Assembly (NCBI GenBank): GCA_001799195.1
Contig: MGSU01000142.1
Span: forward strand, 6,887-15,066
Length of the DNA: 8,180 bases
DNA from: Deltaproteobacteria bacterium RIFOXYA12_FULL_61_11
Lineage (GTDB): Bacteria; Bdellovibrionota_F; JAHFAK01; YA12-FULL-61-11
Direction: 5' to 3'
Positions 1 through 5,754 of the stretch are shown here, piece after piece. Each line of letters begins with the position of its first letter. The first letter of the stretch is position 1. The translations under genes were made by a program, and so were the position numbers. The notes beneath the pieces were generated by a model. The model was not told the origin of the DNA. It ran no database searches and worked only from the letters and a program-made list of their open reading frames with translations.

Positions 1-3000
1 CTTGGCCTCGGCCGGACTGAAGCCGGCTTCTTTCCATGGGGTGGCGAATTCAGCGCGGCGTACGCCGGCGGCCATCCAGGCCTCGGCGGCGGAGTCGTCG
101 AAGCCCGCTTTTTTCCAGGCTGCGGCAGCGGAGGGAGTGGTGGTCCAGCCTTTGGCCTCGGAGGGTTCGAACTTCAGGTTTTTCCATGCAACGGCAGCGC
201 CCGGTACGCGGAACCCGGCTTTCATCCAGGCCACGGTCTCTTCGGCGGTGAACCCGGCTTTGCGCCAGGGCAGGGCTTCTTCCAGGATGAGCGGCCAGGT
301 GGCCGCTTCCTCGGGCTTGAAGCCTTGACGTTGCCATTCTTTTGCCTCGATGGGATTGCGGAAGTTGGCTTTGAGCCACGCTGCGGCATCTTTTGCCTTG
401 AACCCGGCATTGGTCCAGGCAATGGCCTGATCCAAGCCGCACGGCCAAGCCTCTACCTCGTCGGCCTTGAGACCGGCCTGTTTCCAATCCTTGGCGAGTT
501 CCGGCGGCAGGGGCCAGGCTTCGACTTCCGCAGGTTTCAGGCCGGCCTTGTGCCACCGCTCGGCGAGTTGGGGTTCGACGATGCCGTGCTTCCTCCACTC
601 GGTCACTGCAGCGGCTTCGAAACCGGCCTTGCGCCAACGGATCGCTTCTTCGAGGGGCACCGGCCAGGAACGGGCTTCAGTGGGGCTGAATTCGGACCAC
701 AATCCCGCCTTCTCCCACCGCAAGGCCTCCTCGTTGGAGATATGCCAACTCTTGGCAAGTTTGTCGTCGAAGCCGGCCTTCTTCCAGCCTTCCTCGATGA
801 AGGCTGGCTTCTTGCCGGCCGCGGCATCCCGGCCGGTCATCCCGGCCTTCTTCCAGCGTTGGACTTCCTCGAGGCTCAAGCCTTTCCATTCGGCGGCTTC
901 GGCGGCGGTGAAGCCTGCCTGTTTCCAATTCTGGGATTCCTCGAGGCTGAAGGGCCAGGCTTTGGCTTCCTTGGGCTCTACCTTGGCCTGCTTCCACTGC
1001 TTGGCGAACTCGGGGTCTTTGATGCCGGCCGCGTACCAGAGTTTGGTGTCCGCGGGGGTGAAACCGGCACGATGCCACAGCAGTGCGTCGCGGTAATAGA
1101 CCGGCCATTTCTTGTGCTGGTCGAGGGCTAAGCCGGCGCTACGCCACTCCATCGCTTCTTGCAAGCTGAAGGGCCAGGCCGCTACGTCGTTGTCCTTGAA
1201 GCCGGCGTCGCGCCAGGGATAGACCAATTCCGGGGAGGCGAAGCCGAGAGCCTTCCAGGTCTGGACCTGGGGTGCCTCGAGGCCGATCTTCTTCCAACGT
1301 AAGGTCTCGTCGAGGCTCAGCGGCCAGGTCGCGGCGGTGGAGGGATTGAAACCCGCCGCTTTCCAGGCGCCCGCTTCGACAGGGTGTTTGATGCCTGCGC
1401 GCATCCAGCTTTTACTGTCCTCGGGGGTGAACCCGGCTTGCCGCCACTCTTTGGCCATGTCCAGGTCCATGGACCAGGTTCCGCTGTCCTGGACCGAGAA
1501 GCCGGCGTCTTCCCAGGCTTTAGCCTCGATCGGGGTGGTGAAGCCGAGGGCTTTCCATTCGGCCGCGCCCTTGGGATTGTATCCCGCCTCTTTCCATTTC
1601 GCGGTGTCCTGGAACGGGTATGGCCACTCCGAGGCTTCTTGAGGGGTGAAACCCGCATCTTTCCATTGTTTGGCTTCCGCCGCGGATTTGAAGCCCACGC
1701 CCATCCAGGCGGTTGCTTCCGCGGGAGTGAACTTGGCGGCCCGCCAGGTTAAGGTCGCTCCGAGCGGGAGGAACCAGGCGCGGGCTTCTTCTTCTTTGAA
1801 CCCGGCCTTGTGCCACTCCTTGGCCAAGGAGGGCTCGCTCATGCCGAGGTTCTTCCAGGGACGCACGCCCGCGGGGGTGAAGCCGGCGGCCTTCCAAGCG
1901 CGCGCTTCGTCGAGTTCGAGGGACCAGTCCTGAGCGTCCTTGGGACCAAGTCCTGCCTGTTTCCAACGAAGGGTCTCGCTCAGGCCGAAGGGCCATTGCA
2001 TGGCCGTGGTCACGGTGTACCCTGCTTTCTGCCATTGCATGGCGACCTCGGGAGGGAAGCCTTTGTTTCGCCACGATTTTGTCTCGTCGGGCTTAAAGCC
2101 GGCTTTCTTCCAGAGCAGGCTCTCCTCGAGGTCATAGGGCCAGTCCTCGGCGGTCTTGGCGGTGAAGCCGGCATCCTGCCACGCCTTGGCCTCCTCAGGT
2201 GCCATGGGCCAGATCGCGGCCGCGGCCGGCGCAATACCTTGTTGCTTCCAGCGCTTGGCCAGAGTCGGAGAGGTGAAACCCTTGTTCCGCCAGAGCGGCA
2301 CATCGGCGGCTTGGAAGCCCGCCTCTTTCCACGCCTTGGCCTCTCCGAGCGTGGTGTCCCATTTTTCCGAGTCGTCGGCGCTGAACCCCGCCTTCTTCCA
2401 CGCCGTTGCGGCCTCGACCGGGAGCGACCACTTCGCTGCTTCGGCGGGAGAGAAGCCGGCCTGTTTCCAGAGCGAGGCCGTCTGGACTGATTTGTATGCA
2501 GTGTTCTTCCAAGCAGCGGCATCCTGGGGGGTGAAGCCGGCCTTCTTCCAGGCTTCGGCCTCGGCGACCGGGTAAGGCCAGAGTTGTGCATCTGCCGGTT
2601 TGAAACCGGCGTCCTTCCAAGCCTTGGTGTCGCGCAGGGTCGTGGTCCAGGCCGCGGTGTCCTGAGGGGTGAAGGCCGCCTTCTTCCAGGAAACGGCATG
2701 CCGGAATTCGCGCAGACCAGCCAGGTGCCAAGCCTTGATCTCATCGTTGCTGAAACCGGCGCCCTGCCAGGCCTGGGTCGTCGCCAGGTCGAGGGGCCAG
2801 GCCTTGGCGCTCTGCGGAGTGAAGCCGGCCTTCTTCCAGGCGGAGGCGATCTTGCGATCTTTGAAACCGAGCTTCATCCAGGCCTCGAGCTCGTCGATGC
2901 TGAAGCCGAGGTCCAACCAGAGTTTGGTCTCGCCGTACTCATAGGGCCAGGCTCCCGCGCGTTGGGAGGTGAAGCCCAGCTTCTTCCATTTCTGTGCGGC

Positions 3001-3903
3001 GGGGATGGTCGTGAAGCGTTGCTCCTTCCAGCCCTTCATCTCGGCGCTGGTGAAGCCCTGGTCGAGCCATTGCAAGGTTTCGGCGAGTGGGAAGGGCCAC
3101 TTCGAGGCTTGTTCGGCGGTGAAGCTCACCTTTTCCTTCCACAGGAGCGTCTCCTTGAGGGGGAACTCCCACTGCACCGCCTCCTTCGGGGCGAAGCCTT
3201 TCTCTCGCCATTGCGCGGCTGTCTTGGAGTCGGTGACGAAGCGCCGTTGCAGAATAGCGGCTTCTTCGGGCTTGAATTCGGCGTCGGCCCACTCGCGGGA
3301 AACCTTGGGGGGGAAGAATTCTTTCCATTTCTTCGCATCCTCGGCCTCGAAGCCGTGCTTCTTCCAAAGAGCCGCTTCTTTGGCTTCGAAGTTGCTGGTC
3401 TTCCAGCGATGGGCCTCCTTGGGTACCGAGAATTGGTGATCCAGCCAGGGCTTGATCTCCGAGGGTTTGAACAAGCCGGTGGACCAGTCCTTGGCGATGG
3501 TGGGGTGCTCGATACCGGAGCTGATCCACATCTTGACCGTGTCGGGATTGTCGATGCCGTGGTCCAGCCAGGCGCGGGCCTGTTCGGCCGAGATCAGCTT
3601 CTTCTCGGTGAAGAGATAGATGCGGAACCATTGGTCGGTCTTGTTCGGGTCGAAGCCTTGATGTTGCCATTCTTTGGCCACGTCGATGCTGAAGCTCTTG
3701 GTGCTCCACTCGCGGGCCTCGGTGGGCCCGAAACCGGCCTCTTTCCAACGCTTGGCCAGGGCAAGGGTGAAGTTTCCTTTCCATTCCCCGGCCTCGTCGG
3801 CCTTGAACCCCGCATCGCGCCACTGTTCGGCGTCATTGATCTGGAACTTGTTGCCAGCCCAGGCATCGATGTCCGAATCCTCGGCGAAGCCGGCCTCTCT
3901 CCA
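1..3903 (-). repeat. Array of about 100 Trp-anchored 10/13/14-residue protein repeats
   Basis: In-frame Trp codons occur at fixed steps. A 13-residue step carries the core K-x-A-G-F-[TS]-P-x-[ED]-A. A 14-residue step has one extra residue after G-F, usually before a Pro (for example KALGFTTPIEAKAW). A 10-residue step starts with Pro or another residue and runs x-L-[ED]-E-[AT] (for example PLSLDETLRW). The units are divergent in DNA, with only short identical runs such as a stretch of about 20 bases shared near 2530 and 2820, so the array looks old and under protein-level selection and not freshly amplified. Some units have lost Trp: position 254 is Gln and position 1065 is Gly, with spacing on both sides preserved. 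Confidence 0.9.
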
Positions 3904-4008
3904 ACGCTCGCGCTCTGCCGGGGTGAGATCGACCTTGTGGGCAGAACACCCGAGGAGTAGGAGGGCGCAGAACAGTGAGACGAGACGAGATGATGCGTGC
4001 TCGGACAT
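1..4008 (-). CDS. Giant Trp-rich helical-repeat lipoprotein (3' end outside window)
   Basis: Read in the minus frame from the ATG at 4008, all 1336 codons to the window edge are open: I checked every triplet for stops and found none. Residues 1-21 are a lipoprotein signal (lipobox LLGC, Cys21, Ser22 at +2). The mature protein, from about residue 30 on, is a continuous array of short units such as WKKAGFTPEEAKAW and WPLSLDETLRW, with about 103 Trp in all (7.7%). Each unit reads as one short amphipathic helix: a T/S-P-x-E cap, then A-x-x-W, ended by a G-F turn. The likely result is a long alpha-solenoid anchored to the outer membrane and facing the periplasm or outside. Only one other cysteine (about residue 1190) was found beyond Cys21. 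Function is unknown. Binding or scaffolding is an inference from architecture alone. No TPR, HEAT, Sel1, ChW or choline-binding signature fits. Expression is probably from its own promoter at 4073-4100. The reading frame is certain and the family is not. Confidence 0.9.
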   Translation of the reverse strand, partial: MSEHASSRLVSLFCALLLLGCSAHKVDLTPAERERWREAGFAEDSDIDAWAGNKFQINDAEQWRDAGFKADEAGEWKGNFTLALAKRWKEAGFGPTEAREWSTKSFSIDVAKEWQHQGFDPNKTDQWFRIYLFTEKKLISAEQARAWLDHGIDNPDTVKMWISSGIEHPTIAKDWSTGLFKPSEIKPWLDHQFSVPKEAHRWKTSNFEAKEAALWKKHGFEAEDAKKWKEFFPPKVSREWADAEFKPEEAAILQRRFVTDSKTAAQWREKGFAPKEAVQWEFPLKETLLWKEKVSFTAEQASKWPFPLAETLQWLDQGFTSAEMKGWKEQRFTTIPAAQKWKKLGFTSQRAGAWPYEYGETKLWLDLGFSIDELEAWMKLGFKDRKIASAWKKAGFTPQSAKAWPLDLATTQAWQGAGFSNDEIKAWHLAGLREFRHAVSWKKAAFTPQDTAAWTTTLRDTKAWKDAGFKPADAQLWPYPVAEAEAWKKAGFTPQDAAAWKNTAYKSVQTASLWKQAGFSPAEAAKWSLPVEAATAWKKAGFSADDSEKWDTTLGEAKAWKEAGFQAADVPLWRNKGFTSPTLAKRWKQQGIAPAAAAIWPMAPEEAKAWQDAGFTAKTAEDWPYDLEESLLWKKAGFKPDETKSWRNKGFPPEVAMQWQKAGYTVTTAMQWPFGLSETLRWKQAGLGPKDAQDWSLELDEARAWKAAGFTPAGVRPWKNLGMSEPSLAKEWHKAGFKEEEARAWFLPLGATLTWRAAKFTPAEATAWMGVGFKSAAEAKQWKDAGFTPQEASEWPYPFQDTAKWKEAGYNPKGAAEWKALGFTTPIEAKAWEDAGFSVQDSGTWSMDLDMAKEWRQAGFTPEDSKSWMRAGIKHPVEAGAWKAAGFNPSTAATWPLSLDETLRWKKIGLEAPQVQTWKALGFASPELVYPWRDAGFKDNDVAAWPFSLQEAMEWRSAGLALDQHKKWPVYYRDALLWHRAGFTPADTKLWYAAGIKDPEFAKQWKQAKVEPKEAKAWPFSLEESQNWKQAGFTAAEAAEWKGLSLEEVQRWKKAGMTGRDAAAGKKPAFIEEGWKKAGFDDKLAKSWHISNEEALRWEKAGLWSEFSPTEARSWPVPLEEAIRWRKAGFEAAAVTEWRKHGIVEPQLAERWHKAGLKPAEVEAWPLPPELAKDWKQAGLKADEVEAWPCGLDQAIAWTNAGFKAKDAAAWLKANFRNPIEAKEWQRQGFKPEEAATWPLILEEALPWRKAGFTAEETVAWMKAGFRVPGAAVAWKNLKFEPSEAKGWTTTPSAAAAWKKAGFDDSAAEAWMAAGVRRAEFATPWKEAGFSPAEAK
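1144..1896 (-). repeat. Five consecutive 50-residue (150-bp) higher-order modules
   Basis: Trp codons at 1894, 1744, 1594, 1444, 1294 and 1144 are exactly 150 bases apart. Within each interval the Trp steps are 13, 14, 13 and 10 residues, with no exception in five modules (protein residues 705-955). The 10-residue arm is the Pro-led one (for example PYPFQDTAKW, PFSLQEAMEW). This is the cleanest stretch of the array and the best place to define a profile for the family. Confidence 0.9.
3946..4008 (-). other. Lipoprotein signal peptide with lipobox
   Basis: The first 21 codons give a short n-region with one arginine (Arg8), a hydrophobic core (residues 9-19, LVSLFCALLLL) and the lipobox L-L-G-C ending at Cys21, the residue that would be lipidated after signal peptidase II cleavage. 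Ser22 at +2 favours the outer membrane under the usual Lol sorting rule known from enterobacteria. The n-region is weakly charged (Glu3 and His4 beside Arg8), which is slightly atypical. Confidence 0.85.
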
Positions 4009-4013
4009 GAGAT

Positions 4014-4020
4014 CCCCCTT
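4014..4020 (-). promoter_or_regulatory. Ribosome binding site of the repeat lipoprotein gene
   Basis: On the minus strand the sequence AAGGGGG lies 5 bases before the ATG at 4008. It is a partial match to the Shine-Dalgarno consensus. The lipoprotein signal begins directly after this ATG, and that fixes the start. Confidence 0.6.
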
Positions 4021-4033
4021 GAACCGGACGGCA

Positions 4034-4072: not shown

Positions 4073-4100
4073 ATTGTAAACAATGGACCCGGGATGTCAA
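4073..4100 (-). promoter_or_regulatory. Sigma70-type promoter for the repeat lipoprotein
   Basis: On the minus strand a perfect -35 box TTGACA (4100-4095) is followed after 16 bases by TACAAT (4078-4073), one mismatch from the consensus -10. The predicted transcript start is near 4066, giving a leader of about 58 bases before the ATG at 4008. The TGA within the -35 box is the stop codon of tlyA, so the lipoprotein gene can be transcribed independently of the gene in front of it. Confidence 0.7.
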
Positions 4101-4867
4101 CCCAGGACAGGGTATATGCGGCAATGAGTTGGAGAAGAATAGAGGGCTGTGAGCAGGAATTCGAGATTGCCGTCGGCGCCGCTGATCGGCGAGGGGCACA
4201 CCCCCTCGATGGTGCAACCGAGGTCGAGCAGGGAGCGTCGGATTTTTTCGATCGCGTCCTCATGCACCCGGGGGTCCCGGACGATACCTCCCTTGCCTAC
4301 CTCTTTGCGGCCGGCTTCGAACTGGGGTTTGACCAGGACGACCAGACGGCCTCCTGCGCGGAGCCAGCGCAGCACGGGGGCGAAGAGGAGGGTTGCCGAG
4401 ATGAAGGAAACATCCATGACCGCGAGGTCGACGGGTTCCGGGATGAGCTCGAGAGGAGCGGTGCGCACGTTGACCCTCTCCAGCACGATCACCCGGGGAT
4501 CAATGCGCAGGGTATGGTGGAGTTGGCCGTACCCGACATCGACTGCATAGACCCTCTTGGCCCCGTATCGGAGCAGGCAGTCGGTAAAACCGCCGGTGGA
4601 GGCGCCGACGTCGAGGGCTACGGTAGCTTGCACCTCTACCCCGAAGGTGGTGAGGGCCGCCTCGAGCTTGAGGCCGCCTCGACCGACGAAGCGAGGGGGT
4701 TCTGCCAGGGTGATCGGAGCCTCGACCGGAACTGCGTGGCCGGCCTTGCATACGACCTGACCGGCGACGCGGACCTTGCCCGCGAGAATGACGCCCTGGG
4801 CCTTGGTACGGGTCTCGATCAGGCCGCGGTCGACAAGGAGCTGGTCGAGACGTTTTTTCGTTGCCAT
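4097..4867 (-). CDS. tlyA: TlyA family rRNA (cytidine-2'-O)-methyltransferase
   Basis: The 256-residue protein has an N-terminal S4 RNA-binding domain (about residues 4-62, starting KKRLDQLLVDRG) and an FtsJ/RrmJ-type methyltransferase domain (about 63-242). The SAM-binding loop is LDVGASTGGFTD (85-96). The K-D-K-E tetrad known for the family fits Lys67 (GRGGLKLE), Asp152 (MDVSF), Lys180 (VKPQFE) and Glu236 (NLEFLLT). TlyA enzymes use SAM to 2'-O-methylate ribose in 23S rRNA and, in some species, 16S rRNA, and their loss gives capreomycin resistance in mycobacteria. The old name haemolysin A is misleading. The ATG at 4867 is chosen because AAGGG lies 7 bases before it (4875-4879) and the S4 domain begins at once. 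A GTG 17 codons upstream is open but overlaps the likely promoter. Length is normal for the family. The target nucleotides here are not determined. Confidence 0.93.
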   Translation of the reverse strand: MATKKRLDQLLVDRGLIETRTKAQGVILAGKVRVAGQVVCKAGHAVPVEAPITLAEPPRFVGRGGLKLEAALTTFGVEVQATVALDVGASTGGFTDCLLRYGAKRVYAVDVGYGQLHHTLRIDPRVIVLERVNVRTAPLELIPEPVDLAVMDVSFISATLLFAPVLRWLRAGGRLVVLVKPQFEAGRKEVGKGGIVRDPRVHEDAIEKIRRSLLDLGCTIEGVCPSPISGADGNLEFLLTALYSSPTHCRIYPVLG

Positions 4868-4938: not shown

Positions 4939-5754
4939 ATGCGTGATCGGCAATACCTCGGCACGGCGTACACCATGTCCGAGCAAGAACACCACTATGG
5001 TCCCAACGTCCATCTCGTCGCCGATACGGTCCTGCGCACCCTCCTCGCGAGGCTCTGCTCCCCCGAGACGATCCAGCCCGACGTAAACTGGCTGATCGGC
5101 AGGATCTACGAATCCCTGGTCAACGTGGTCATCAATAAGGAATTCACTCACCAGGTCCAGACGCGCAAGACGCGCATGGAAAGCCATATCCCGGGGGGCA
5201 GCTACGAGGTCGAGTTGATCGAACCCAGCACCAGGGTGGTCCTGGTCGACCTGGCCCGCGCCGGCATGTTGCCGTCGATGGTCTGTTTCGAATACTTCAA
5301 CTACGTGATGAAGCCCGAGAACATCCGCCTGGACCACATCTTCATCGCCAGGCAGGTCGACGAGCACCAGCACGTCGTCGGCTCCAGCGTCTCGGGCCAT
5401 AAGATCGGCGGGGACATCGAGGATTCGGTGGTCATTTTCCCCGATCCCATGGGTGCGACCGGGAAATCGATCAAGAAGTCCATCGACGTCATCACCACCG
5501 CGGCCAAGGGTACCCCGCGCAAGCTGATCGCCCTGCATCTGATCATCACCCCGGAGTACGTGCGCTACATCCACACCCACTACCCGCAGTTGGTCATCTA
5601 CGGACTCCGTTTGGACCGGGGCCTCAGCGACGCGGACGTCCTGGCCACGGTGCCGGGTACCTATCACGAGCGCGAACGCGGGCTCAACGAGAAGGATTAC
5701 ATCGTACCCGGAGCCGGTGGCCTGGGCGAAGTCATCAATAATTCGTACGTCTAA
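4939..5754 (+). CDS. upp: Uracil phosphoribosyltransferase (long form)
   Basis: This 271-residue type I phosphoribosyltransferase should convert uracil plus PRPP to UMP in cytosolic pyrimidine salvage. Three regions align by eye with classic Upp: VVLVDLARAGMLPS (the core strand and loop, compare VVPILRAG in Escherichia coli), the PRPP-binding loop FPDPMGATGKS (Asp169-Gly175; compare VDPMLATGGS), and the C-terminal uracil-binding segment YIVPGAGGLGE (from Tyr254; compare YIIPGLGDAG). It is about 60 residues longer than E. coli Upp, with a different N-terminal part (contains HHYGPNVH) and extra residues before the C-terminal motif (GLSDADVLATVPGTYHERER). I recall similar long forms in myxobacteria. 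The start is set by a strong Shine-Dalgarno sequence. It is first in a tight run with hpt (4-base gap) and ridA. Uracil preference is inferred from the C-terminal motif and is not certain for this divergent form. Confidence 0.85.
   Translation: MRDRQYLGTAYTMSEQEHHYGPNVHLVADTVLRTLLARLCSPETIQPDVNWLIGRIYESLVNVVINKEFTHQVQTRKTRMESHIPGGSYEVELIEPSTRVVLVDLARAGMLPSMVCFEYFNYVMKPENIRLDHIFIARQVDEHQHVVGSSVSGHKIGGDIEDSVVIFPDPMGATGKSIKKSIDVITTAAKGTPRKLIALHLIITPEYVRYIHTHYPQLVIYGLRLDRGLSDADVLATVPGTYHERERGLNEKDYIVPGAGGLGEVINNSYV

Follow-up and report, generated by a model that had tools for sequence, protein, structure and literature searches.

A giant putative lipoprotein made of tryptophan-started units belongs to an uncatalogued and widespread bacterial repeat family

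We describe a giant protein from Deltaproteobacteria bacterium RIFOXYA12_FULL_61_11 that is a real and selected member of an uncatalogued, widespread family of helical repeat proteins. Its unit is started by Trp, typically carries an A-G-F motif and is most often 13 residues long. Judged by sequence comparison, this W-AGF repeat forms a family of its own that is spread over many phyla. Lipoproteins, kinase-like and TPR proteins, and proteins of viral contigs contain this unnamed module, which current databases either miss or mislabel as DotG-like.

Gene organization and lipoprotein signal

The window, which is the whole 8,180-nucleotide stretch analyzed (G000:C142:6887-15066), comes from a 4.6-Mb assembly of 342 contigs that is 87% complete. 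The minus strand carries a frame at 1-4008, with its ATG at 4008, which holds the first ~1,336 of ~1,813 codons of the gene. As first read, this frame is rich in tryptophan (103 Trp in 1,335 residues, 7.7%) and open at the left edge of the window. The first-pass annotation had proposed extending the contig to the left. When this was done, the frame and the repeats continued across a 15-N scaffold gap to a TGA at position 5453 of locus L004, and the protein proved larger than first read, ending in a non-repeat domain of ~107 residues with two Cys. The assembled coding sequence has 5,442 bases and encodes ~1,813 residues, including five unknown codons; this residue count is provisional because the length of the 15-N gap is the assembler's estimate. 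The whole protein contains 132 Trp (7.3%). It had been considered that the frame might be broken in the source genome; it is intact there as assembled. No second gene of this kind was found within the source genome.

A sigma-70-type promoter, TTGACA-16-TACAAT, matches at 11 of 12 positions and lies at 4073-4100 on the minus strand; the promoter scan of the region found this one site against a shuffle mean of 0.3. A likely ribosome binding site, inferred from the purine-rich sequence CAAGGGGGATCTC before the ATG, lies at 4009-4025 (minus strand). Residues 1-20, MSEHASSRLVSLFCALLLLG (3949-4008, minus strand), are predicted to be a lipoprotein signal peptide. The lipobox L-L-G-C occupies residues 18-21 (3946-3957, minus strand) and bears out the signal noted at first reading; by the lipobox rule Cys21 is predicted to be lipidated, and it is followed by Ser at +2. 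The source genome encodes LspA (PF01252), which is signal peptidase II, as well as Omp85 proteins, so that the organism is diderm and has lipoprotein processing. With the N-terminal lipobox signal and LspA in the same organism, the protein can be classed as a putative bacterial lipoprotein. Conditional expression had been suggested from the cost of so much Trp. This suggestion found no support, and the near-consensus promoter argues mildly against it.

The upstream neighbor, on the same (minus) strand at 4097-4867, encodes an FtsJ/S4-domain methyltransferase of the TlyA type. A terminator-like hairpin located at the end of this gene overlaps the promoter of the giant gene (window 4088-4106, minus strand).

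Repeat periodicity and selection on the units

The window contains 103 Trp-started helical units of 13, 10 or 14 residues (1-3903, minus strand). About 29 more lie beyond its edge, giving 132 in the whole protein. Among the 131 Trp-Trp spacings, 63 are 13, 33 are 10 and 25 are 14, which makes the unit lengths first proposed (13/14/10) exact. The spacing order is near-strict 13-X-13-X, where X is 10 or 14, and nearly all of the 10s and 14s have 13s on both sides. Identity autocorrelation peaks at lag 50 (0.24), lag 23 (0.18), lag 13 (0.16) and lag 27 (0.15), compared with a mean of 0.078. The consensus of the 13-residue unit is W-K-x-A-G-F-x-P-x-E-A-x-x, and the 14-residue unit is the same with one more residue. 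The 10-residue unit has the consensus W-P-x-x-L-x-E-A-x-x. Positions 2, 3, 7, 9, 12 and 13, which lie between the conserved ones, are variable.

No two of the 13-mers are identical, and their mean pairwise identity is 38%. In unit pairs sharing Ala or Gly at columns 4, 5 or 11, bases 1 and 2 of the codon agree in 99.8% and the third base in 43%. The first two bases agree because the amino acid is shared; the informative part is the scrambled third base. Since synonymous sites have been randomized and the amino acids W, A, G, F and A have been held unit after unit, selection has acted on the protein. The repeats are old and are kept by protein-level selection. Scrambled third bases and the lack of identical 13-mers are not what a recently expanded stretch of DNA or an artefact of assembly would show.

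Predicted fold of the repeat array

Structure prediction of about residues 700-960 had been recommended at first reading. We modeled residues 705-968 (1105-1896, minus strand), which comprise five 50-residue super-units (13-14-13-10), with AlphaFold2, and the alignment was made up of further stretches of this protein. The model covers 264 of ~1,813 residues. It is a confident, all-helical solenoid with a mean pLDDT of 91.5 and a pTM of 0.72. Each unit forms one short helix in the model, the helix lengths are ~9-9-9-6 residues per super-unit, and helix pairs span 23 or 27 residues. The constant parts (W, A-G-F and (T/S)P-x-E-A), taken at first reading to be structural, form the helix frame of the modeled solenoid, and the positions between them vary. 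A separate prediction for a signal-bearing relative from another phylum, Nitrospinota (L052), also gave 9-residue helices, with a pLDDT of ~90 in the first repeats. The array of the giant protein would thus fall in the alpha-solenoid class by the tandem stacked helices of the AlphaFold2 model.

When the giant-protein model was searched with Foldseek, neither the PDB nor the set of viral models contained a match at E <= 0.001. In structural realignment, the best solved matches were designed left-handed alpha/alpha toroids (Doyle et al. 2015). The top row, 5BYO, had a Z of 10.2 with 264 residues aligned at an rmsd of 27.5, which is below the tool's safety level of ~13 for helical repeats. It was followed by 4YXZ (Z 6.9) and 4YXY (Z 5.7, rmsd 3.4 over 76 residues), and the first unrelated row was at 3.9. 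The same toroids were among the top rows for the L052 model, at a Z of only ~3. The tool warns that helical repeats can reach such Z values without relationship, and we therefore take handedness and class as tentative, if likely. The modeled solenoid may belong to the designed-toroid class, left-handed alpha/alpha, and the toroid match only suggests its left-handedness. The toroids are artificial closed rings, whereas the giant-protein model differs from them in overall shape; an rmsd of 27 over 264 residues means that its overall curvature is not that of 5BYO. Toroid units are reportedly 31-33 residues long. According to a review, the toroid architecture was picked by its designers because it was previously unreported (PMC7734218). 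The predicted coil is closer to an artificial designed protein than to any solved natural one. Going by the model, the fold is most likely an alpha-solenoid, and the matches obtained include no natural protein of solved structure that corresponds to it.

Classical alpha-solenoids such as TPR, HEAT, TALE, PPR and Sel1 are, like the modeled protein, stacks of helix pairs, and they serve as modular binding scaffolds. Their units are ~31-47 residues long, in contrast to the predicted helix pair of 23 or 27 residues. PPR and TALE unit lengths fall within this range, TALE being 34 (PMC11514114). Pfam searches of the giant protein found no TPR, HEAT, TALE, PPR or Sel1 match (E up to 1, and up to 10 for the C-terminal part).

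C-terminal domain

Proteins L052, L089 and L093 and a protein of genome G021 are built alike: they start with a signal peptide, a lipoprotein signal or a membrane anchor, continue with the repeats and end in a domain containing Cys. L052, L089 and L093 have such a C-terminal domain in common with the giant protein. Compared with the counterpart in L052, L089 and L093, the giant C-terminal domain scored 7.1 bits and ranked second of 2,001 sequences (2,000 shuffles). Position and pattern suggest that these domains may be homologous; the match is statistically weak. The C-terminal domain of L052 was modeled as beta with a pLDDT of ~45. We make no claim for the C-terminal fold because of the low confidence of this relative's model.

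Relatives in other genomes

Relatives were sought with a back-translated W..AGF.P.(E/D)A..W pattern, which gave 49 stretches in named genomes. Many were true arrays after translation, and several were chance matches (TatD-like proteins and others). A profile search had also been proposed at first reading. The profile built from the giant protein found 28 collected relatives at E values of 2e-6 to 1e-173, and it matched none of seven pentapeptide-repeat controls and none of 28 shuffles. The giant protein belongs to this family by profile and by its W-to-W units with AGF and EA. The family is sparse, as a profile search of the 385 further genomes in the sample gave matches in three at E <= 0.001, one of them borderline. 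No name for the repeat was found in a literature search with motif strings or among Pfam and NCBIfam families.

The relatives have ~5-60 units, most commonly with a plain period of 13, compared with ~130 units in the giant protein. The 10/13/14 alternation and the great length set it apart from the relatives collected. It is the longest frame seen; other relatives reach up to 1,045 residues, some being cut by contig ends. The unnamed W-x2-AGF-x4-A-x2 proteins with 13-residue repeats, for example L083, L091, L086 from Desulfarculaceae and L052, have the same helical unit, and several are lipoproteins. The Ca. Calescibacterium protein (L083) has more than 40 units, and arrays were also seen in WOR-3 (L091) and Leptospiraceae. 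Small W-AGF lipoproteins occur in Desulfarculaceae, Glaciecola, Aliagarivorans and a Pseudomonadales MAG.

The repeat is also joined to other domains, with TPR in L061 and with DUF2207 in L069. Genome G090 encodes a kinase-like protein of 1,045 residues with these repeats. In a sister locus in Ca. Calescibacterium (L082, 1998-4451, plus strand) and in L046 (3708-6842, plus strand), a long run of W-AGF repeats comes after an N-terminal part that looks protein-kinase-like by eye. L083 (1-2811, plus strand) and L046 have membrane helices close to their C-terminal ends. The proteins of L082, L083 and L046 may be kinases in which the repeats act as a sensor or scaffold.

Proposed role and alternatives

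We consider it reasonably probable that the giant protein is an outer-membrane lipoprotein with one very long alpha-solenoid body, serving as a scaffold or tether with a C-terminal head. Each unit would form one short helix of ~9 residues (6 in the short unit), which would start at the (T/S)P-x-E-A cap, have the following Trp close to its end and be stopped by the A-G-F turn. The helices would pair as 23- or 27-residue hairpins, stacked via Trp, Ala, Gly and Phe, and a curved coil of ~66 hairpins would result. A lipid anchor would lie at the N-terminus, a long variable surface would be open to protein partners, and the ~107-residue domain, whose two Cys may form a disulfide, would be presented as a head at the far end. 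Such an anchor, curved helix stack, variable outward positions and far-end head would be arranged as in a scaffold or tether. The relatives, with the repeat in small lipoproteins, next to a Cys-containing C-terminal domain and in kinase-like or TPR fusions, are what one would expect of a scaffold module.

A helix pair in alpha-solenoids in general measures ~1 nm, and ~66 pairs would give a contour of ~60 nm. This exceeds the usual periplasm, and the protein would have to be coiled, follow the wall or project from the cell surface. The Slam family (PF04575) had no match in the source genome and none in the control genomes. Tentatively, the W-AGF repeat may represent a new natural class of alpha-solenoid with an unusually short helix pair of 23-27 residues, of the left-handed alpha/alpha type that is best known to date from closed designed toroids. 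The protein would then be the giant form of this class in the envelope, spanning the periplasm or extending past it.

The first-pass annotation had stated that no named repeat family matches the protein. It remains correct that the protein fits none of the characterized families, with one qualification: PF25296 (Decapeptide) scores above its Pfam cut-off (56.6 bits against 45), as the only significant Pfam match. At face value, the protein would be a DotG/IcmE-type decapeptide protein, either a core subunit of type IVB secretion or a pentapeptide-like beta-helix. The A-G-F motif is common to both, and DotG is the only natural PDB sequence match (E 2.5e-4). However, the NCBIfam DotG model gives 72 bits, far below its cut-off of 750, and PF25296 matches 45 of 386 genomes, where the strong matches inspected are pentapeptide-repeat proteins. 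DotG/IcmE repeats have a 10- or 5-residue period with no Trp in the aligned repeats, and DotG has a TrbI/VirB10 domain. In the giant protein the autocorrelation at lag 5 is 0.049, below the mean, and at lag 10 is near the mean, with the peaks at 13, 23, 27 and 50; for a pentapeptide control they fall at 5, 10 and 20. The AlphaFold2 model is all-alpha. No TrbI/VirB10 domain was matched by Pfam in the C-terminal part, nor was PF03743 found in the 87% complete genome. We therefore reject the PF25296/DotG identity as a cross-hit, based on period, predicted fold, TrbI absence and the non-specificity of the Pfam model, and do not file the protein under DotG. This identity is largely refuted and very improbable.

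A surface adhesin or ligand-binding array, in which variable outer helix positions bind glycans, prey or other cells, would also agree with a lipoprotein that has a very long array and variable positions. We regard it as unlikely. The Pfam search of the giant protein found no carbohydrate-binding or adhesin domain, the reading presupposes surface export, and some relatives, among them kinase, TPR and actinobacterial forms, look cytoplasmic, so that extracellular ligand binding is not the general use of the repeat. The extreme length and regularity, together with the finding of no enzymatic domain, could instead mean that the protein serves the envelope passively, as a spring, a spacer or structural filler rich in Trp, and has no specific partner. 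This is quite improbable, as low complexity is not seen at the variable positions and the protein has retained a separate C-terminal domain. TALE, BurrH and mTERF chains at Z 2-3 against the model raised the idea of a solenoid that binds nucleic acid, as TAL effector and mTERF folds would suggest, and this is the most improbable of all. The Z values are low, the protein is exported, and its unit of 23 or 27 residues differs from the 34 of TALE (PMC11514114). The 13-residue rule has a practical side: being simple, it would suit repeat-protein design.

Other observations on repeat proteins

Three small gammaproteobacterial lipoproteins with ~5 W-AGF units, L066 (from Aliagarivorans, 437-883), L067 (5792-6148) and L048 (4970-5560), all on the minus strand, end in a common (D/N)xRxKGLxP tail. 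For L066 and L067, none of the Pfam or NCBIfam families reached its cut-off. Four Nonomuraea loci (L065, L085, L087 and L092) encode a conserved, cytoplasmic-looking actinobacterial protein that carries W-AGF units on either side of a divergent middle part. Genome G021 has at least three W-AGF proteins (L043 4401-5744, minus strand; L044 4827-5225; L045 706-1230), and an in-frame stop seemingly interrupts the C-terminal domain of the longest.

Three viral contigs from IMG/VR encode W-AGF proteins of 116-401 amino acids (L099 8526-8873, L100 5763-6965 and L101 860-1402). Phage records gave no W-AGF match, and PHROGs and PADLOC gave matches at chance level only.

Loci L102, L103, L105-L108 and L110 bear on the specificity of PF25296, which looks poor: in the genome sample its matches were mainly pentapeptide-repeat proteins. 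Some W-AGF repeat proteins also score over its cut-off.

Matches on Salmonella plasmids were set aside as an unrelated NPLNRQTMEESW repeat. On a Salmonella IncHI plasmid (L012, 5988-7064), a "hypothetical protein" consists of near-identical FNPLNRQTMEESW repeats. It is probably a translated tandem DNA repeat and not a W-AGF relative.
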